Shown here piece by piece: positions 14,740 through 48,782 of a DNA stretch of 64,000 nucleotides. Source of the DNA: Neptunicoccus cionae (GTDB lineage Bacteria; Pseudomonadota; Alphaproteobacteria; Rhodobacterales; Rhodobacteraceae); NCBI RefSeq assembly GCF_014643735.1, contig NZ_BMKA01000001.1:620001-684000 (forward strand). The letters run 5' to 3'. A model generated the notes under the pieces. That model did not search any database. It was not told the origin of the DNA and worked only from the letters and a program-made list of their open reading frames with translations. Each line of letters begins with the position of its first letter. Positions within the stretch are counted from its first letter, which is position 1. Position numbers and translations under genes: made by a program.

Positions 14740-15021
14740 ATGCAGACCCGTAACAAACTGTTCGAAGATCTGAGCCAAGTGATGACAAACGCGATGGGCG
14801 TGGCCCAAGGCGCGCGCACCGAGGCGGAAACTGCCATGAAAAGCTGGATGGACCGCTGGCTGGCCGATCGCGATTTTGTGAGCCGTGAAGAGTTCGACGC
14901 CGTGCGTCTGATGGCCCAGAAAGCGCGTGAGGAAAACGCTGCTTTGTCCGCCCGTCTGGACGCGCTGGAAGGTAAGGCTGATAAAAAGCCTGCCGCAAAG
15001 AAAACTACTGCTAAGAAGTAA
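14740..15021 (+). CDS. UbiK/BMFP-family accessory protein
   Basis: A 93-residue protein of the DUF526 (BMFP/UbiK) group. It starts MQTRNKLFEDLSQVM, and a REEFDAVRLMAQKAREENAALSARL coiled coil precedes a Lys/Ala-rich tail. In enterobacteria UbiK assists aerobic ubiquinone biosynthesis; BMFP proteins can fuse membranes in vitro. The start at 14740 with GGGGG upstream fits the family N-terminus better than the in-frame ATG ten codons earlier. The lysine- and alanine-rich end (KPAAKKTTAKK) is unusual in sequence but common in alphaproteobacterial members. Confidence 0.85.
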   Translation: MQTRNKLFEDLSQVMTNAMGVAQGARTEAETAMKSWMDRWLADRDFVSREEFDAVRLMAQKAREENAALSARLDALEGKADKKPAAKKTTAKK

Positions 15022-15139
15022 GGTAGTTTCGGGCTAATTGCTCCGGTCTGCCGTCATTTGCGGCGGCACATGTTTGCGATTGGCTCTCGACCTATCCGCA
15101 GGGGCGTGGTTTTTAGGATCAAAGCGAAAGACTTGATCT

Positions 15140-16045
15140 ATGGACCTCTGGATTCCCATCAGCATCGGCGCAGCGTTCAGTCAGAACCTGCGCTTTATGC
15201 TGCAAAAACATCTCAAAGCCACAGGGCTGAGCACGGCAGGCGCAACATTCGCGCGGTTCCTGTTTGCCGCCCCGCTTGCCGCTGCCTTGTTGTGGGTGCT
15301 GGTCCGCGCAAACGGCTGGAGCCTACCTGCGCTGTCTCCCCGTTTCTTTCTGTTTGCGGGCATCGGCGGGTTGGCGCAAATTCTGGCAACGATGTGCGTG
15401 GTTGCGCTGTTTTCCCGCCGCAACTTTGCCGTTGGTATCACCTTCAAGAAAACCGAAACGATTCAGACCGCATTGATCGGTGTCATCGTGCTGGGGGAGG
15501 GGATTTCCGGCTATGGGCTATTGGCCATTCTGATCGGGCTGGTTGGTGTGATCCTGCTGTCCGACCCGCCAGAGCGGCAGGGACGCGGCGGGTGGCGGCG
15601 ATATTTTAACGGTGCTGCGGGGCTGGGACTGGCTTCTGGCGCGCTGTTTGGTGTTTCTGCCATCGGGTATCGTGGTGCTTCCCTGTCGCTGGGGGAGGCG
15701 CATTTCCTGTTGCGTTCGGTCTTTACGCTGATGTGTGTGACCACCTTCCAAACCGTGATCATGGCGGTTTGGCTTTCCCTTCGCGAAAAGGGAGAGATTG
15801 CCAAAGTCCTGCATCACTGGCGGATTACAGCACTTGTAGGACTGTCCGGCATGATCGGATCGCTTGGCTGGTTCACCGCCTTCACGTTGCAAAATGCGGC
15901 CTATGTAAAGGCGCTGGGGCAGGTGGAGTTGATCTTTTCCTTCCTTGCCTCTGCGCTATTCTTCAAAGAGACGACGACCTTGCGGGAATTATCCGGCATC
16001 GGATTTGTCGTGTTGTCGATCCTTGTGCTCGTCTTGTTCCTGTAA
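15140..16045 (+). CDS. EamA/DMT-family exporter
   Basis: A 301-residue membrane protein with about ten hydrophobic helices in two EamA halves. Characteristic stretches are WIPISIGAAFSQNLRFMLQKHLK at the start and AAYVKALGQVELIFSFLASALFFKETTTLRELSGI near the end. It is only distantly similar to the other DMT protein at 2762-3601. Substrate unknown; family members export amino acids and other metabolites. It stands alone and converges on the LytTR gene with an 11-bp gap. Confidence 0.85.
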   Translation: MDLWIPISIGAAFSQNLRFMLQKHLKATGLSTAGATFARFLFAAPLAAALLWVLVRANGWSLPALSPRFFLFAGIGGLAQILATMCVVALFSRRNFAVGITFKKTETIQTALIGVIVLGEGISGYGLLAILIGLVGVILLSDPPERQGRGGWRRYFNGAAGLGLASGALFGVSAIGYRGASLSLGEAHFLLRSVFTLMCVTTFQTVIMAVWLSLREKGEIAKVLHHWRITALVGLSGMIGSLGWFTAFTLQNAAYVKALGQVELIFSFLASALFFKETTTLRELSGIGFVVLSILVLVLFL

Positions 16046-16056
16046 CGGCACGGCCG

Positions 16057-16848
16057 CTAGATCATCCCCACGGCCCGCAGTTCGGGGCGATAGCTGCGGG
16101 ACACCGGCACATCGGCCCCGTCTGACATGCGCAACCAAACCTTACGGTCCCGCTTGATCACGCCGGTGACTTCGTTGAAATTCACCCAGTGAGAGCGATG
16201 AACCTGCGAGCCGTCAAAGCTCTCTAGCATTTGGGTTGCATCGGACAGGCGCATCAGCAGCAGCTTTGGCCCTTTCTCGGTATGCACCTCAACGTAGTGG
16301 TCGGCACTTTGCATCCGCACCAGTTTGCTGCCTGCGTCCGGTCCCAGCTTGCGCAGGATCAATCGCGCGGCCTGTGCGCTGCTTCCGTGGCTGAATTGAT
16401 CGCGTACGATATTACTGCCGCGAATGATGAAGAAAAACACCGGCATCAGGAAGATGCCCACCATCATATTTAACATATACCAGCGCAGATCCGCACGAGA
16501 CAGCACAGATCCCGAAATATCCACCGCAATCAACGCCAGCCCAAGGCTCAACGCGCCGACAACAACACAGATCAGCGAAAGCGCCGCGATTCGCTTAACG
16601 ACCGGGCTGTCGGGATAGATCCGCGTCAGTGTCAGAAAACCCAGTCGATACAATGGGTAAACGATCAAAATGCACATCAGGATCACAGCGATATTTTTAA
16701 GGGACACCGGTGATTGCGACGTCAGCATCGGGGGCAGGGCGTTCAATACAATCAACACAGTATAGAGACAGCTTGCCAACCACATGACAGCGGGTAGCGC
16801 ATGCAGCACATTTCTGTCCCGACCGGAAAAAATGATGTGAATATTCAT
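16057..16848 (-). CDS. Membrane-anchored LytTR-domain regulator
   Basis: A 263-residue protein with four predicted membrane helices (about residues 18-38, 50-75, 85-110 and 122-142) and a C-terminal LytTR DNA-binding domain (about 165-262). The LytTR signature is visible in LVRMQSADHYVEVHTEKGPKLLLMRLSDATQML and QVHRSHWVNFNEVTGV. The regulator has no receiver domain, so a membrane or quorum-type signal is likely. Three direct repeats about 150-225 bp upstream of its start have the spacing expected for LytTR sites. It is convergent with the DMT gene. Confidence 0.85.
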   Translation of the reverse strand: MNIHIIFSGRDRNVLHALPAVMWLASCLYTVLIVLNALPPMLTSQSPVSLKNIAVILMCILIVYPLYRLGFLTLTRIYPDSPVVKRIAALSLICVVVGALSLGLALIAVDISGSVLSRADLRWYMLNMMVGIFLMPVFFFIIRGSNIVRDQFSHGSSAQAARLILRKLGPDAGSKLVRMQSADHYVEVHTEKGPKLLLMRLSDATQMLESFDGSQVHRSHWVNFNEVTGVIKRDRKVWLRMSDGADVPVSRSYRPELRAVGMI

Positions 16849-16993
16849 GGATCTGCCCGTTTTATTGGGATTTTCGTGGATTGCACCATGATGAGAGAGG
16901 AATCAGGCGGAAATGTGTCAGGCGCGGGGCGGTGCTGTGTTCAGTCCGTGTCTGTCATTAGACGCTTCGTGAATGGTGCAGGGTCAAAGTTGG

Positions 16994-17072
16994 GTGTACA
17001 TTTCGCGAAGCGCCAATTTGAATTTTAAAAAGTGGTGTGCATTTGGCGAATAATATGTGTCATTTCGCGAAT
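16994..17072 (+). promoter_or_regulatory. Three helically phased direct repeats, candidate LytTR binding sites
   Basis: GTGTACATTTCGCGAAG (16994-17010), GTGTGCATTTGGCGAAT (17035-17051) and a TGTCATTTCGCGAAT copy (17058-17072) share the core CATTTcGCGAA. The cores start at 16999, 17040 and 17061, giving spacings of 41 and 21 bp, about four and two helical turns. Known LytTR regulators bind paired direct repeats with a period near 21 bp. The membrane LytTR gene starts 146 bp to the left. Confidence 0.6.
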
Positions 17073-17113
17073 AGGGGCTGGAAAACAAGGGGTTTTGAAG
17101 CGATAAACATTCT

Positions 17114-17311
17114 CGACTTCAGGGCGCAAGCCGCCCACCTCCAGGTCAGTCAGGTGCACCGCACCGGTTGTGATAAAAAGGCCCCGTTTCACTGACAGCG
17201 GCCACATTGCCACAACGCGCATCGCTAAGGCAGCACGCTCGTCCCGTGCATCCCCTGCGATACTGACGAAAAAAGACGCTCCCGGACATTGCCTCCTGGG
17301 AGCGTTTTTTT
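17114..17311 (+). ncRNA. Candidate small RNA of about 200 nt
   Basis: A promoter-like pair (TGGAAA at 17079-17084, 17 bp, GATAAA at 17102-17107) sits just after the LytTR-type repeats. A strong intrinsic terminator ends at 17311. No reading frame with a ribosome-binding site fits between. The combination suggests a regulated non-coding RNA. Both ends are inferred from sequence only; a read-through role for the terminator from the soe operon is the main alternative. Confidence 0.35.
17276..17311 (+). terminator. Strong intrinsic terminator (bidirectional)
   Basis: A perfect 8-bp stem (ACGCTCCC with GGGAGCGT) and 14-base loop is followed by seven T on the plus strand and preceded by an A run, giving a T run on the minus strand too. 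The soe operon already has its own closer terminator at 17382-17417, so the plus-strand use is the more interesting one. Confidence 0.75.
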
Positions 17312-17381
17312 ATGCCTGATAGCGATCGGATTGCATTCCGCTGTGGCAGCGGCATAGCACGCGGCCAGCGGCGCTGTGGGC

Positions 17382-17417
17382 AAAGAAAAGGCCCGGGGCG
17401 ACGTTCGCCTCCGGGCC
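17382..17417 (-). terminator. Terminator of the pta-soe operon
   Basis: On the minus strand a GGCCCGGAGGCGA / TCGCCCCGGGCC hairpin with a minimal loop is followed by TTTTCTTT, 28 bp after the soeC stop codon. Confidence 0.75.
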
Positions 17418-17444
17418 GGTGTTTCGCGCCGCTGTAGGTGTGGT

Positions 17445-18329
17445 TCAGGCGGCTCTGTGACGGTCGTAATAGAGCGCTTGTACATGCTCTGCCTCGGCGA
17501 AGAACAGCCAGCGGGCGGCAAAGACCCCCACCAGATGCAGGACGATGGCGAGAAGGGCGCTCAGGTGGCCGGGGGCGGTCAGCAGTAGCAGGGCGCAGGG
17601 CAGGACGCCAAGGCACAACAGCGCGATCACACGCAGCTTCAACGCATGTTTACGCCCGACTTCATGGGCCATCTCGCGCAGCAGATAATTGGTGCCGCTG
17701 TGCGGGCTTTCCAACAGGCGGACCTTGCCAAGATGGCCAAGCCCTGTCGCAGCCTCAATGGTACCACCAGCGGCCTTCAGACGGCCATCGCCGATGGTCC
17801 AGTGTGCGTATTGCAGGATTGCAAGGATCACCATCAGACCAGCGGCGAGATAAACCTGACCGGACAGCAGCGCGCCGCCAGTAAGGGCGTAGACCAGAAA
17901 CAGAACAGGCGTGAGCGGCTGGTTCCAGCGGGGCACCGTCTTTAACTGTCCGTAAATCATTGAGGTGCAATATACCGATATCAGGCTGAGAATCGAACCG
18001 ATGATCCCGACAACAGGCAAGCGGAGGTCCAGAAAAATCAGACAGGCGGCATAGATGCCCATGACGCATAGCGACAGAACCGCGAACACGCCTTCACGGG
18101 AGAGCCAGCTGGTGCGCCACTGGGTGAATGCTTTGAGTGCGCGTTGCGGATTTCCAAGGTGGAAGGTGGACGCGATCAACCCGCCTACGGCCAGTGCATA
18201 GGCGATGAAGAAGAAGATGAAGGCGGTCATGCCGGTTACGTCGGGGACGTTTACCCCCAAAAAGGCGAGCAATCCAAAGCCAAGCCCTGAAAGCGCGGTG
18301 AAGACAATAACGGATGGTGCGGGATGCAT
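17445..18329 (-). CDS. soeC: DmsC/SoeC-type membrane anchor of the molybdoenzyme
   Basis: A 294-residue protein with eight predicted membrane helices. The DmsC-family loop HLGNPQRALKAFTQWRTSWLSREG (about residues 57-80) is complete. It should anchor the SoeA/SoeB complex to the cytoplasmic membrane and exchange electrons with quinone. Its start codon overlaps the soeB stop (TGATG), so translation is coupled. The SoeC name rests on context with sulfonate genes; DmsC of a DMSO reductase is the alternative. Confidence 0.82.
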   Translation of the reverse strand: MHPAPSVIVFTALSGLGFGLLAFLGVNVPDVTGMTAFIFFFIAYALAVGGLIASTFHLGNPQRALKAFTQWRTSWLSREGVFAVLSLCVMGIYAACLIFLDLRLPVVGIIGSILSLISVYCTSMIYGQLKTVPRWNQPLTPVLFLVYALTGGALLSGQVYLAAGLMVILAILQYAHWTIGDGRLKAAGGTIEAATGLGHLGKVRLLESPHSGTNYLLREMAHEVGRKHALKLRVIALLCLGVLPCALLLLTAPGHLSALLAIVLHLVGVFAARWLFFAEAEHVQALYYDRHRAA

Positions 18330-19120
18330 CAGATAGCCTCCAGTGCTTTGTCGAGCCAGCCCAAAAGGCCCTTGGCAGAAGTCGAAGTGGATCCTGTGGA
18401 AGAACCGGATTTTCCGGCACTTCCGGTATCAAGGAATGGTGCGAGAATATCGATGTCTCCGTCTGTCTGGATATCTGCCTTCGGACGGGGCGGCAGGTAG
18501 CGGTTCACAGGATTGGTGCCCTGTTCGGGGAACAAGGGAACTGCGCCCCGTTCTGCGGACATGCGGGATACGTTGCTGTCGGGATCGGCAAAATCGCCAA
18601 AGTGACGGGCGTTTGCGGGGCATGTACGCACGCAGGCCGGTTCGCGGTCCACTTCGGGCAGGTTTTCGTTATAGATGCGGTCGACACAAAGGGTGCATTT
18701 CTTCATTACCCCTTCAGCGGCATCCAACTCCCGCGCGCCGTACGGGCAGGCCCAGGCACACAGGCCACAGCCGATGCAGTCGGACTCGTTCACCAGAACG
18801 ATCCCGTCGTCCACGCGCTTGTAACTCGCACCGGTTGGGCAAACAGTGACACAAGGCGCATCATCGCAGTGCAGGCAGGATTTAGGAAAGTGAACGGTTT
18901 GGGCCGGCTTGTCGGCGGCTTTTACCTCAAACGTATGAATGCGGTTCAGAAATGTTCCGACCGGCTCTGCGCCATAGGCATCCTGATCTGACAGGGGCGC
19001 ACCATAGTTGGAGGTGTTCCATTCCTTGCAGTTGATCACGCAGGCATGGCAGCCAACGCAAATGTCCAGATCAATGGCAAGGCCCAGTTTCTTGTGGGTG
19101 GATTGGGGTAGGGTGGTCAT
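18329..19120 (-). CDS. soeB: Four-cluster iron-sulfur subunit SoeB (DmsB-like)
   Basis: A 263-residue ferredoxin-type subunit. Four cysteine clusters are visible: DICVGCHACVINCKEWN, CLHCDDAPCVTVCPTG, CIGCGLCAWACPYG, and KKCTLCVDRI...ACVRTCPANA. It passes electrons between the molybdenum subunit and the membrane anchor. The last 50 residues are a low-complexity Ser/Thr/Gly linker (GSAGKSGSSTGSTSTSAKG) ending in a short helix, an unusual tail for the family. It overlaps the hydrolase gene upstream by four bases and soeC downstream by one. Confidence 0.88.
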   Translation of the reverse strand: MTTLPQSTHKKLGLAIDLDICVGCHACVINCKEWNTSNYGAPLSDQDAYGAEPVGTFLNRIHTFEVKAADKPAQTVHFPKSCLHCDDAPCVTVCPTGASYKRVDDGIVLVNESDCIGCGLCAWACPYGARELDAAEGVMKKCTLCVDRIYNENLPEVDREPACVRTCPANARHFGDFADPDSNVSRMSAERGAVPLFPEQGTNPVNRYLPPRPKADIQTDGDIDILAPFLDTGSAGKSGSSTGSTSTSAKGLLGWLDKALEAI

Positions 19121-19950
19121 TGTGAAACTCCAAGGGCGTTTGCTGCAAAGGCGGCAATCTCGTCGTTGAAACGGGCCGGATGTTCGGCAAAGGGCGCGTG
19201 TCCGGTTTCGGCATAAAATGTTTGGGTGCAGTTTGGCAGTGCCTCAACCGCGGCTTCCCCAACGGCGGGCAAAACGATGTCGTCCTCTTCGCCGTGAATC
19301 ACGAGCGAGGGTTTTGTAAAGGCCTGCCAGCTTGGCCGGCAGTCCCAATCGCCCGCAAATAGAGCGCGGCGCACCATCGCGGGCACCAGCATATTGGCCG
19401 CAACCAGCGTCGCATAACTTGCCCGATCAAGCGGTCTGAATGTGCATTGTTCGACGAATTTAACAGTCGCGGGGATAAGGCGGTTCTGATCGGAGGTGTA
19501 AAGATCACGGTTCAACGCGGGGCTGCCGTCCCCCATCATCCACGGCTCTCGGTGTTTGCCGATGGCAATGATACCCCCCACAAGAACGATGCCGCCAATA
19601 GCGTACTGCCCGTATGTGGCAAGATACGAAGAGATCACCCGTGCACCATAGGACCAGCCGATCAGGATCGGGCTTTTGAGGCCAAGTTCGGTGATCACCG
19701 CATAGATGTCATTGGCCCAGAGCGTTTCGTCGGTGTAATCTTCGACCGCTGAAGGCGTATCCGATCCGCCGTGCCCCCGCAGGTCGAGCGCGACAACGCG
19801 GAATTTTTCAGCCAGGGGTGCTTGGGCCTGCCAGCAGACATTATGCTGTGCCCAACCGTGGATGAACAACAGGGCGGGCGCGTCCTCTGGCCCTTGGTCC
19901 GTCACATGAATTTTGCAGCCACCGCCGCCGGAGACATCGTGGGTGCGCAT
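19117..19950 (-). CDS. Alpha/beta hydrolase inside the soe operon
   Basis: A 277-residue alpha/beta-hydrolase without a signal peptide. It has the oxyanion motif LLFIHGWAQHN (about residues 27-37), the nucleophile elbow GWSYGAR with Ser100, the acidic segment VIHGEEDDIV, and the catalytic His in ETGHAPFAEHP. The gene abuts soeA at one base and overlaps soeB by four, so it is translated as part of the soe set. A direct catalytic part in sulfite oxidation is not known for this fold. It may act on an organosulfur ester or help cofactor or complex maturation; both ideas are inference. Confidence 0.85.
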   Translation of the reverse strand: MRTHDVSGGGGCKIHVTDQGPEDAPALLFIHGWAQHNVCWQAQAPLAEKFRVVALDLRGHGGSDTPSAVEDYTDETLWANDIYAVITELGLKSPILIGWSYGARVISSYLATYGQYAIGGIVLVGGIIAIGKHREPWMMGDGSPALNRDLYTSDQNRLIPATVKFVEQCTFRPLDRASYATLVAANMLVPAMVRRALFAGDWDCRPSWQAFTKPSLVIHGEEDDIVLPAVGEAAVEALPNCTQTFYAETGHAPFAEHPARFNDEIAAFAANALGVSQ

Positions 19951-22784
19951 CAGAAGTCTTTCCCGTAGCGGATGTTTTTCGGTCCTTGACCCACAGGAGA
20001 TTTCTGCGCCGGAACCTCTGGTTCGGATTGCAGGTTGTCCGGTGTCGGGGCCTTGCGAATATTAACGCGCAGGTCATACCACGCGGCCTGTCCTGTCACG
20101 GGATCAGAGTTTGACCAGCGCAGACCATCGCCTTTAGGTGGTAGAAGTTCGTGGATCAAGTGATTGAGCAAGAACCCTTTTTTCGTCTCAGGCGCATCTT
20201 CATCCAGCGCCCATGCACCTTTGCGTTTGCCAATGGCGTTCCATGTCCAGACGGTGTTGGGGTTCAGCGCATCCATACGCACCACGGGCACCTGAATTTC
20301 GCCGTGATGAGATTTGAGATAGGCCCAATCGCCTTCTTCGAACCCGTGCTCGGCCCAGATTTCACCGGACACATACAGAGGGTTGTGGCCGTGGATCTGA
20401 CGTAGCCACGCATTTTGCGAACCCCATGAATGGTACATGGCCGCAGGGCGTTGGGTCAGCGCGTGAAGGGGGTATTCTTCCCCGTCCACCAGCGCTTCCT
20501 CAAAGGGTTGCCACCATGTGGGCAGCGGGTCCATCGCCATTTTCAACTGTTCGCGCAGATGATCGGGTGGCTGCAATTCGCCTTTCCCTTCCGCTGCCAG
20601 ACGGAATTTCTGCATCTGCTCTACATAGATGTTGAACGTGTAGGGGGAGGGTTTGTCAAAAATGCCCCGCTCCACCGCCCAGTCCTGATAGGCTTTGTTC
20701 CACGGCTTGTAGAACAGCGCCTCTTCGGGGATGTGGTCCATATAAAAGCCGCCGTTTTCGATGTAGCGGTCGATTTGATCAGGATTTGGCGCACCCCGAC
20801 CGGAGCCTTTTTCATCTTCTCCCCGCCAACCTGCGAGCGGTCCGACACCGGGGCGGCGTTCATGGTTAACGATGTAATCGGCGTAATCCTGATATTTGGC
20901 GGAACCGTCCTCGTTTAAAAAACCGGGCAGTTTCATCTTGGCGCCAAGCTGGATCAGGGCGGATTGGAACCCGCGCACATCGCGGTCCGGTTCCACGACG
21001 GGCCAGCGGATGCTGTCGCACATGGCTTCAGCCTCTGATATCGGGCGGTCCAGCAGGGAAATACAATCGTGCCGTTCAAGGTAAGTGGTGTCCGGCAGGA
21101 TCAGATCGGAAAATGCCACCATTTCAGAGGAATAGGCGTCCGAATAAATAATCCGTGGAATGACGTATTCACCATCCTCGGTCTTATCCGTCAGCATATC
21201 CATCACACCACGAGAGTTCATGGAGGAATTCCACGACATGTTCGCCATATACATGAACAGCGTGTCGATCTTGTAGGGATCACCGGCATGGGCGTTAGAA
21301 ATCACCATGTGCATCATACCGTGGGCCGACATGGGGTTTTCCCACGTAAACGCTTTGTCAATCCGCGCCGGTGTGCCATTTGCCTTGATCGCAAGGTCTT
21401 CAGGGCCTTGCGGGAAGCCCAGATGCGGCCCGTTCAGCGGGCTGTTGGCCACGGGTTTGGCATGGGGGCGCGGGTGGCCCGTTACGGGTTTGGGGTAGGG
21501 TGGTTTAAAGCGAAAGCCGCCCGGAACCTCGACACTGCCTAGCAGGATTTGCAACACGTGCAGGGCGCGGCAAGTCTGGAAGCCGTTGGAATGGGCTGAA
21601 ATTCCGCGCATGGCGTGGAAGGCCACGGGGCGACCGATCATCTTGTCGTGTTTCTCGCCTCGGAAATCGGTCCACGGTTGGTTAATGACGATTTCTTCGT
21701 CAAATGCGGTGCGGGCCAGTTCGGCGGCCAGACGCCGGATAGTTTCGGGTTTGACGCCGGTACGTTCCGATACGTTTTCCGGCGCGTAATCATCCACCAG
21801 ATATTTTTCCGCCATCAACTGGAACGCGGGCCGATAAAGCGTGCCTTTATGGGTGTAATCCGTGGCGAGTTCCGGTTTCACCCCTTGCTGGTCAAAGGGC
21901 AATGGCTCGCCAGTGGCACGGTCGAGCACCTGCGGTTTGCCGTCGTTATCATAAAAGAACAGCCCGTGATCGTCCGATGCAGGGTCGCAATTCACCAGAT
22001 AGGGCGCGTTAGTGTAGCGGATCAAATAGTCCAGATCCACCTTACCAGCGGCCAGCAATTCGCGGATCAGGGACAGGATGAACAACCCGTCCGTGCCCGG
22101 TGTGATACCAACCCATTCATCCGCAATCGCGTTATAGCCTGAACGCACAGGGTTCACGCCGACAATTTTGGCGCCCCGTTCCTTCAGGCGGGAGAGGCCC
22201 AGTTTGATCGGGTTGGAATCGTGATCCTCGGCTACGCCGAAGATCATGAACATTTTGGCCCGTTCCCAATCGGGTTGGCCAAATTCCCAGAATGCACCGC
22301 CCATGGTGTAGATGCCAGCGGCGGCCATATTTACCGAGCAGAACCCGCCGTGGGCGGCGTAATTCGGGGTGCCGAACTGTTGCGCCCAAAAGGATGTGAG
22401 GGATTGGGACTGATCACGTCCGGTGAAAAACGCCAGCTTTTCAGGGTGTTTTTCCCGCAGTGGGGTCATCCAGTCGGATGCGATCTGGAAGGCTTCGTCC
22501 CAACTGATTTCCTCAAACTCGCCCGAACCGCGGGGGCCGACCCGTTTCATCGGCGCTTTCAGGCGGGCAGGGGAATAATGCTGCATGATCCCCGCAGAGC
22601 CTTTGGCGCAAAGCACACCGCGGTTGATCGGGTGATCGCGGTTGCCCTCGATGTATTTCACCTTGCCGTCCTGCATATGCACATTGATGCCGCAGCGACA
22701 GGCGCACATGTAACAGGTGGTTTTGCGGATTTCGTCAGAAACCTTGGGGGAGGTATCCAGATCGGGTTGGATGTGTTTGTTCAT
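19950..22784 (-). CDS. soeA: Molybdopterin oxidoreductase, sulfite dehydrogenase SoeA type
   Basis: A 944-residue member of the DMSO-reductase family. The N-terminal [4Fe-4S] site is formed by Cys24, Cys27, Cys31 and Cys59. The molybdopterin domains follow (EISWDEAFQIASDWM onwards), and AAHGGFCSVN carries Cys149, a candidate molybdenum ligand. No Tat signal is seen, so the complex should face the cytoplasm, as reported for SoeABC. SoeABC oxidises sulfite to sulfate and feeds quinone. Assignment is by length, subunit set and the neighbouring pta and tau genes. A polysulfide or thiosulfate reductase is the alternative. It follows pta after 72 bp. Confidence 0.8.
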   Translation of the reverse strand: MNKHIQPDLDTSPKVSDEIRKTTCYMCACRCGINVHMQDGKVKYIEGNRDHPINRGVLCAKGSAGIMQHYSPARLKAPMKRVGPRGSGEFEEISWDEAFQIASDWMTPLREKHPEKLAFFTGRDQSQSLTSFWAQQFGTPNYAAHGGFCSVNMAAAGIYTMGGAFWEFGQPDWERAKMFMIFGVAEDHDSNPIKLGLSRLKERGAKIVGVNPVRSGYNAIADEWVGITPGTDGLFILSLIRELLAAGKVDLDYLIRYTNAPYLVNCDPASDDHGLFFYDNDGKPQVLDRATGEPLPFDQQGVKPELATDYTHKGTLYRPAFQLMAEKYLVDDYAPENVSERTGVKPETIRRLAAELARTAFDEEIVINQPWTDFRGEKHDKMIGRPVAFHAMRGISAHSNGFQTCRALHVLQILLGSVEVPGGFRFKPPYPKPVTGHPRPHAKPVANSPLNGPHLGFPQGPEDLAIKANGTPARIDKAFTWENPMSAHGMMHMVISNAHAGDPYKIDTLFMYMANMSWNSSMNSRGVMDMLTDKTEDGEYVIPRIIYSDAYSSEMVAFSDLILPDTTYLERHDCISLLDRPISEAEAMCDSIRWPVVEPDRDVRGFQSALIQLGAKMKLPGFLNEDGSAKYQDYADYIVNHERRPGVGPLAGWRGEDEKGSGRGAPNPDQIDRYIENGGFYMDHIPEEALFYKPWNKAYQDWAVERGIFDKPSPYTFNIYVEQMQKFRLAAEGKGELQPPDHLREQLKMAMDPLPTWWQPFEEALVDGEEYPLHALTQRPAAMYHSWGSQNAWLRQIHGHNPLYVSGEIWAEHGFEEGDWAYLKSHHGEIQVPVVRMDALNPNTVWTWNAIGKRKGAWALDEDAPETKKGFLLNHLIHELLPPKGDGLRWSNSDPVTGQAAWYDLRVNIRKAPTPDNLQSEPEVPAQKSPVGQGPKNIRYGKDF

Positions 22785-48536: not shown

Positions 48537-48705
48537 CTGGGGCAGGGGCGCCTGTCTGGCGGGCCTTGCACCAGTGGAATTTATCCAACCGTTAACCCAA
48601 GCGCGATCTTGGTTGCCAGTCTGTCACGCCAGAAGGGCTGCGCGCCCAGATCTGTCGGGGGCTGGCTGCCGTTTCCCGCAGATTGATACAATAGAAGGGG
48701 GGATG

Positions 48706-48782
48706 GTACCAGCGCCCCGGCTCGAACGGGGGGCCTCTTGATCCACAATCAAGCGCTCTAACCTACTGAGCTACGCCGGCAC
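48706..48782 (-). tRNA. tRNA-His (GUG)
   Basis: A complete cloverleaf on the minus strand. The anticodon stem CTTGA/TCAAG encloses the loop TTGTGGA with anticodon GTG. The acceptor stem has eight pairs, including the extra G-1 opposite C73 that marks tRNA-His. D-loop (TAGCTCAGTAGG) and T-arm (GTTCGAGC) sequences are normal. CCA is not encoded. Confidence 0.95.

Follow-up and report, generated by a model that had tools for sequence, protein, structure and literature searches.

A membrane LytTR regulator and a divergent structured RNA as a candidate signalling module in Neptunicoccus cionae and its relatives

What is controlled by the phased repeats that lie ahead of a membrane LytTR regulator gene in Neptunicoccus cionae? 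In the 64,000-nucleotide stretch of DNA analysed here (the window), a 596-bp intergenic region between lytTR and the convergent end of a molybdopterin oxidoreductase operon holds both the LytTR-type sites and a candidate noncoding RNA (Table 1). An earlier reading of the sequence alone (the sequence-only reading) had proposed that the RNA is LytTR-controlled. There is precedent for such an arrangement: most LytTR regulators bind upstream of the -35 element and activate (PMC11347149), and the Firmicutes RNAs RNAIII, VR-RNA, VirT, VirU and SpoZ are driven by LytTR-type regulators (PMC10602386). Conserved sites, covarying stems and linkage to lytTR in related genomes support the proposal, and from the arrangement of these elements we infer transcription of the RNA, its strand and its start. 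Taken as a whole, the regulator and the divergent RNA probably form a two-gene signalling module in which LytTR activates the RNA.

Table 1 Features of the lytTR–RNA intergenic region and its flanks in the window
Feature	Position	Strand	Description
lytTR	16057..16848	minus	263-aa regulator with four predicted membrane helices and a LytTR domain; divergent from the RNA
R1	16963..16976	not set	Weaker LytTR-type site, partly palindromic; score at least 8/11 in 12/12 sequences
R2	16994..17009	plus	LytTR-type site, core CATTTCGCGAA, centre -106; same position in 12/12, score 11/11
R3	17035..17050	plus	LytTR-type site, centre -65; same position in 12/12, core score 8-11 of 11
R4	17057..17071	plus	LytTR-type site, centre -44, 21 bp from R3; same position in 12/12, score 10-11
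Putative -35	17079..17084	plus	TGGAAA; CTRGAAA in 11/12 sequences
Putative -10	17102..17107	plus	GATAAA or GATAAC; GATAA in 12/12
Candidate noncoding RNA	17113..17311	plus	About 200 nt; start placed from the -10, end from the terminator
5' domain	17115..17147	plus	GAC/GUC closing pairs, H1 (GGGCG/CGCCC, 17122-17136), unpaired CCUCCA (17138-17143)
H2 hairpin	17153..17165	plus	GGUGC/GCACC; compensatory changes in relatives
H3 hairpin	17233..17249	plus	Loop CUCGUCC in 12/12; clean covarying stem in 11/12, imperfect in G031
Intrinsic terminator	17270..17311	plus	16-bp stem and 7 T, by folding
DmsC-type anchor gene	17445..18329	minus	End of the oxidoreductase operon; by Pfam

The Pfam search listed LytTR as the sole domain of the lytTR product (PF04397, E 3.9e-15, residues 178-259), in agreement with the earlier placement of a LytTR regulator 146 bp from the first repeat. 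It returned neither a receiver domain, the mark of a two-component response regulator, nor an MHYT sensor domain of the CoxC kind. An AlphaFold model of low confidence (mean pLDDT 55.6) predicts helices at residues 9-34, 50-77, 83-112 and 118-155 and a C-terminal part with strands, so that the modelled protein shows a HigX-like layout of four membrane helices followed by a LytTR domain. Counterparts at 95-96% identity come from Amylibacter cionae, Neptunicoccus sediminis and one Rhodobacteraceae MAG; N. cionae and N. sediminis belong to the same genus in the taxonomy listing. The neighbouring operon had been called soe. What could be confirmed are the Pfam families (molybdopterin oxidoreductase, Fe-S subunit and DmsC anchor); no NCBIfam model scored above its cut-off among the matches listed. 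Within the operon, an alpha/beta hydrolase gene (PF00561; window positions 19117-19950, minus strand) lies between the genes for the catalytic and Fe-S subunits; by eye, G008 has a similar-looking frame at this position, and in G013 (L020) the two subunit genes are adjacent. The sole tRNA of the window is tRNA-His, at 48704-48780. When positions 15000-20000 were searched against plasmids, none of the 20 matches listed covered the intergenic region.

Three repeats spaced 41 and 21 bp apart had been reported, and they are present, with core centres at 17004, 17045 and 17066. The consensus given for them fits R2 exactly and R3 with one mismatch, but R4 lacks its 'n' base, so that a pattern search returns R2 and R3 only; the count of three also overlooked a fourth, weaker site, R1. 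Allowing up to 3 mismatches, the 16-mer matches 3 times in the window, where 2.73 matches are expected. Because this is not above chance, the locus was assessed by genome comparison. A contig scan with the LytTR protein yielded 5 loci, to which searches around these added more. RNA loci were located by GATAA and TTCTCGAC, which are present in all 12 sequences (the window and 11 relatives), and site centres were counted from TTCTCGAC, the conserved motif at the RNA start. The core centres of R2, R3 and R4 show no spacing change in any of the 12 sequences. The R1 centre falls between -140 and -142 in the plus reading (12/12), and in several relatives its minus strand scores best. Identity between the sites is lower in five far relatives (0.26 in the R2-R3 spacer, 0.71 between R3 and R4). 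R3 and R4 thus appear in all 12 sequences as a direct-repeat pair 21 bp, or two helical turns, apart upstream of the -35 element.

Like sites also mark other LytTR genes. Pairs spaced by 21 bp occur in 13 of 27 non-orthologous LytTR loci (11 loci after merging overlaps). Over the 27 loci, the 21-bp spacing had 15 pair counts, 20 bp had 1 and 22 bp had 0; no other spacing in the range 12-59 exceeded 3, and a reversed-pattern control gave 0 pairs. The 15 counts include two repeats from overlapping loci (L062/L075 and L063/L076) and one L077 pair read on the other strand, which leaves 12 site pairs. One locus, L072, has a pair at 20 bp only, and 13 of the 27 have no such pair, namely all ten most distant ones (L099-L108) together with L061, L064 and L068. 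Judged from match positions, with gene starts approximate, most pairs lie at or no more than about 60 bp upstream of a LytTR gene start. In L067, L071, L073 and L074 (G008, G002, G001 and G003) the pair precedes a LytTR paralog by about 260-290 bp, much as at the RNA locus, and in L069 it lies about 700 bp upstream of the LytTR gene start. Across 11 whole genomes the strict pair pattern has 13 matches, 8 of them at the RNA, 3 at a paralogous LytTR gene and 2 elsewhere, with 0 in the reversed control; the RNA loci of G004, G014 and G018 miss this strict pattern. The significance of the sites comes only from comparison, that is, from centres fixed in 12/12 sequences and from the 21-bp pairs at other LytTR loci; on these grounds the repeats are very probably LytTR operators.

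Several of these loci carry further features. In L083, L084 and L090 (G021, G031 and G018), a second, paralogous LytTR gene has its own 21-bp pair at or just upstream of its start and is likely an autoregulated second system with a like operator; a PqiA-like gene follows it in all three (PF04403, tested in G018 only). By eye, an acyl-CoA dehydrogenase-like frame immediately precedes a 20-bp-spaced pair at about 1501-1531 of L086 (G018:C7:56380-56410). No LytTR gene was noticed next to this pair, which is possibly a further regulon member or a chance match.

Past R4, the promoter-like pair TGGAAA and GATAAA, 17 bp apart, is present as had been stated, and is a weak sigma-70 match; a promoter scan of the window does not list it. 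The terminator expected about 200 bp farther on is also there: folding shows the hairpin, which a terminator scan of the window does not list. A terminator-like hairpin and T run close the block in all 12 sequences, 196-204 nt after TTCTCGAC, with pairs of the terminator region changed on both sides among 10 sequences. The earlier argument that the operon has its own nearer terminator stands in part. A separate hairpin is visible by eye at about 17387-17420 on the minus strand, but the argument is weakened by several relatives in which a single hairpin lies between operon and RNA.

Conservation delimits the same unit. Mean identity to the window in three close and three mid relatives is 0.98 and 0.92 in the 5' domain and 0.98 and 0.81 in the terminator, and just past the terminator it is 0.43 and 0.25; the fall from 0.98 to 0.43 in the close relatives indicates that the conserved unit ends at the terminator. 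Within the unit, stems change sequence but keep pairing, which marks the block as an RNA gene. With RNAalifold on a MAFFT alignment, two-sided changes appeared in only 6 of 29 pairs, five belonging to the terminator and one to H2. H1 is one base out of register between lineages in that alignment, and the helices were therefore read sequence by sequence. Read in this way, six sequences have GGGCG/CGCCC as H1, four have GGAGC/GCUCC, G002 has GGGCG/UGCCC (with one G-U) and G014 has yet another version; the GAC/GUC closing pairs do not vary. For H3, the finder chose a wrong register in G031, and with that entry excluded 11 of 12 sequences were usable. CCUCCA and the CUCGUCC loop are predicted to be exposed, with unpaired probabilities of 0.60-0.98 and 0.69-1.00, respectively, versus 0.35-0.41 for the whole RNA. 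The middle of the RNA (about 17172-17236) holds a small GUUUC/GAAAC-type hairpin in several relatives (e.g., G004, G005, G008, G014 and G021), which does not occur in this form in the window's group.

Against shuffled sequences, the full-length fold has z scores of -2.65 to -6.40 in 12/12, much of which is due to the terminator. For the body without the terminator, z is a modest -0.28 to -3.29 for the plus strand, against +0.63 to -2.78 for the minus strand; in G004 and G008 it is the minus strand that scores lower. Pairs of H1-H3 number 189 on the plus strand, with 7 wobbles, and 192 on the minus strand, with 18, a count that does not separate the strands. In 7/12 sequences the plus strand has the longer terminator stem, in 2/12 the two strands are equal, and in 3/12 the minus strand has the longer one (G002 and G021 by one pair, G031 by ten). 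The plus strand is nevertheless favoured, chiefly because operators and -10 element precede the 5' domain at a fixed distance and because of the terminator in the window itself. The earlier reading saw no frame with a ribosome-binding site between promoter and terminator. The window has a 49-codon GTG frame in the RNA, but no frame is conserved, none being common to lineages across the 12 sequences, and G021 is without any frame of at least 12 codons. No Rfam family matches the locus, whether in the window or in the 6 loci of relatives that were searched; with a threshold of E<=10, the strongest of 6 matches in 16850-17440 has E 0.43 and lies far below its curated score. By its covarying stems and terminator, the block looks like a discrete structured RNA with its own terminator, and the comparisons make it very probably a real noncoding RNA.

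RNA and regulator occur together in the genomes compared. The lytTR protein has matches at E<=1e-20 in 16 of 101 relatives, of which 11 are orthologs and the other 5 are at 32-47% identity. Ten of the orthologs reach 60% identity or more over most of their length (59-96% in an alignment of ten), and in G031 the gene falls on separate contigs. With a DNA query, the RNA block was recovered in 9 of the 101 relatives. A covariance model of the 5' domain, built from 10 sequences (nine relatives and the window; G014 and G021 were left out), recovered all 11 ortholog-bearing genomes among 293 relatives at E 2.6e-22 to 2.2e-7. Weak matches followed in 15 other genomes at E 0.096-0.95, with second matches in G014 (0.012) and G021 (0.73); none of the 15 genomes rises above chance level. 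Because 12-16 candidates per genome were scored with strict filters, weak relatives of the RNA could be missed. In each of the 11 ortholog-bearing relatives, the RNA lies just upstream of lytTR and divergent from it. In a family sample of 394 genomes, the RNA model matches G001 only. In a family sample of equal size searched with the protein, 163 genomes have a match at E<=1e-15, and G001 alone has an ortholog, the best match elsewhere being at E 1.6e-26 and 32% identity. With the protein searched in the 101 relatives and this family sample of 394, neither an ortholog without the RNA nor the RNA without an ortholog was found. A LytTR-domain regulator is thus linked to this RNA in the window and 11 relatives. 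A search for the repeats beside LytTR homologues, which the sequence-only reading had named as a check, therefore came out in its favour: sites and RNA occur together in all 12.

Based on these data, we propose a plausible mechanism for the locus. One gene encodes a one-component membrane regulator, with four predicted membrane helices and a LytTR domain; the other, in divergent orientation, would yield a dedicated noncoding RNA about 200 nt long. The LytTR domain would most likely bind the in-phase direct repeats R3 and R4, 21 bp apart and just upstream of the -35 element, aided by R2 and R1. Such binding would activate the RNA promoter, and the RNA would end at its own terminator. R4 and R3 lie about 48 and 69 bp before the putative RNA start. 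Since 21-bp direct repeats that end upstream of the -35 element resemble activating LytTR promoters and that of SpoZ, whereas the CoxC repressor overlaps the -35 element, activation is favoured. We infer activation over repression, the adjacent LytTR protein as binder and the pairing mechanism described below. LytTR paralogs with like sites occur in the same genomes and weigh against assigning the binding to the adjacent LytTR protein; we consider it reasonably probable that the adjacent regulator activates the RNA.

The RNA itself probably acts in trans, in that CCUCCA, between H1 and H2, and CUCGUCC, in the H3 loop, would pair with the ribosome-binding regions of target mRNAs. This role is suggested by the two invariant, exposed C-rich motifs, and we lean slightly towards pairing with mRNAs as the mode of action. 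A search for long complements of the CCUCCA region before ATG gave 8 matches, which include the RNA locus and come from 5 of the 11 genomes, against 1 in the control, with no shared target. The same search brought up GACCTGGAGGGGCTCGATG, common to three mid relatives (L095, L096 and L094; G004, G005 and G008), which could be coding or a target site. Alphaproteobacteria also possess C-rich anti-Shine-Dalgarno sRNAs, CcsR and the cuckoo RNAs, which expose CCUCC-type motifs. Their architecture and length differ from those of the present RNA, which has no Rfam match.

The repeats might instead serve only as an operator for autoregulation of lytTR, the RNA being real but independently driven, or repressed by LytTR. 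Autoregulation is likely in this family, since other LytTR genes have like 21-bp pairs at their starts or up to about 300 bp before them; R1, the site nearest lytTR, scores best towards lytTR in several relatives; and CoxC, an alphaproteobacterial membrane LytTR protein, is a repressor (PMC11347149). Against this stand the exact distance of R2-R4 to the -10 of the RNA in 12/12 sequences (R1 varies by 2 bp) and the position of R4, which ends upstream of the -35 element, whereas the CoxC operator overlaps it (PMC11347149). We therefore regard autoregulation alone, or repression, as unlikely. That repeats, hairpin and spacing are all chance features is a reading we give practically no weight: the 16-mer is not above expectation in the window alone, but fixed spacing and covariation over 12 sequences and the co-occurrence of lytTR and RNA speak against it.

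Two other readings concern what lies downstream. Action mainly in cis, on the molybdopterin oxidoreductase operon through 3' overlap of the convergent transcripts, would fit the constant neighbourhood and the single hairpin between RNA and operon in several relatives. The RNA is conserved, however, in G004 and G005, where another gene intervenes, and in the window and close relatives, where the operon has its own terminator-like hairpin, which leaves this reading rather improbable. In G004, the gene between operon and RNA terminator is a LysR gene (L004 2521-3501), and in G005 it is a 550-aa frame without Pfam match (L005 1816-3465). This last frame runs in the same direction as the RNA and, with the 49-codon GTG frame of the window, is what might speak for a small-peptide gene or for a leader or attenuator transcribed ahead of a downstream gene. 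Yet the next gene is convergent in the window and in the other loci viewed (the oxidoreductase anchor gene, or the LysR gene in G004), the frames are not shared between lineages, and the terminator-like hairpin and T run are universal among the 12 sequences, all of which makes a leader or peptide gene very improbable. An RNA activated by LytTR and acting in trans thus remains the preferred reading.

VirR and RgaR both carry LytTR domains. The closest parallel is SpoZ of Clostridioides difficile, an sRNA activated by the VirR-like RgaR via two direct repeats, with critical G residues at -51 and -72 (PMC10602386); R4 and R3 occupy almost these positions in the present locus. It differs in that RgaR, a response regulator, has a partner histidine kinase, the phylum is another and the present RNA has no Rfam family. 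RNAIII (under AgrA) and VR-RNA, VirT and VirU (under VirR) likewise have a LytTR-type regulator with a regulatory RNA as key output, as proposed here (PMC10602386, PMC3673130). In contrast, these RNAs belong to two-component systems of Firmicutes, RNAIII also encodes a peptide (hld), and none has an Rfam match to the present RNA. The agr locus has a divergent promoter pair, of which one side drives RNAIII. On the regulator side, HigX of Caulobacter crescentus is likewise a LytTR protein of an alphaproteobacterium; its N-terminal part is predicted to form four membrane helices, and it lacks a periplasmic domain. It is reported to control protein genes, and its motif is the inverted repeat ATGTTASC/GSTACCAT rather than direct repeats (PMC13384398). 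The word sRNA is absent from the text of that paper. CoxC of Afipia carboxidovorans and RcoM resemble the present system in that a LytTR domain acts on three direct repeats about two helical turns apart, and CoxC is membrane-bound; they differ in having an MHYT or heme sensor and cox genes as targets, and CoxC represses from an operator over the -35 element (PMC11347149).

The RNA had been put forward as not described. It is absent from Rfam and undescribed in the literature matches listed, as far as their titles and abstract openings go, but noncoding RNAs driven by LytTR-type regulators are known (RNAIII, VR-RNA, VirT, VirU and SpoZ; PMC10602386). A search, with subscription journals mostly outside its range, found no paper on LytTR and a small RNA in Rhodobacter, and the available part of a Ruegeria small RNA paper contains no LytTR (PMC4809877). 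The novelty therefore apparently lies only in this RNA family, in its lineage and in the use of a one-component membrane regulator.

For a membrane LytTR protein, the locus supplies an operator and an output that can both be tested, together with an RNA family whose pairing motifs are conserved, and since like operators mark paralogous LytTR genes too, their regulons can be searched. More broadly, it may represent a class of membrane-to-RNA modules, in which an integral-membrane one-component LytTR protein has a single co-inherited, structured antisense-type RNA as its dedicated output, a generalisation that we offer tentatively and hold to be somewhat less probable than not. If it is true, an activator held in the membrane would bring the active RNA promoter there, the RNA would arise at the places where membrane-protein mRNAs are translated, and membrane state would be coupled directly to post-transcriptional control without a kinase, a diffusible regulator or a protein effector. 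With the finding, the regulator-to-RNA circuit known from Firmicutes (RNAIII, VR-RNA, SpoZ) would have a counterpart in marine Rhodobacterales, run by a one-component membrane regulator, and the arrangement suggests that these bacteria use an RNA to relay a cell-membrane signal.
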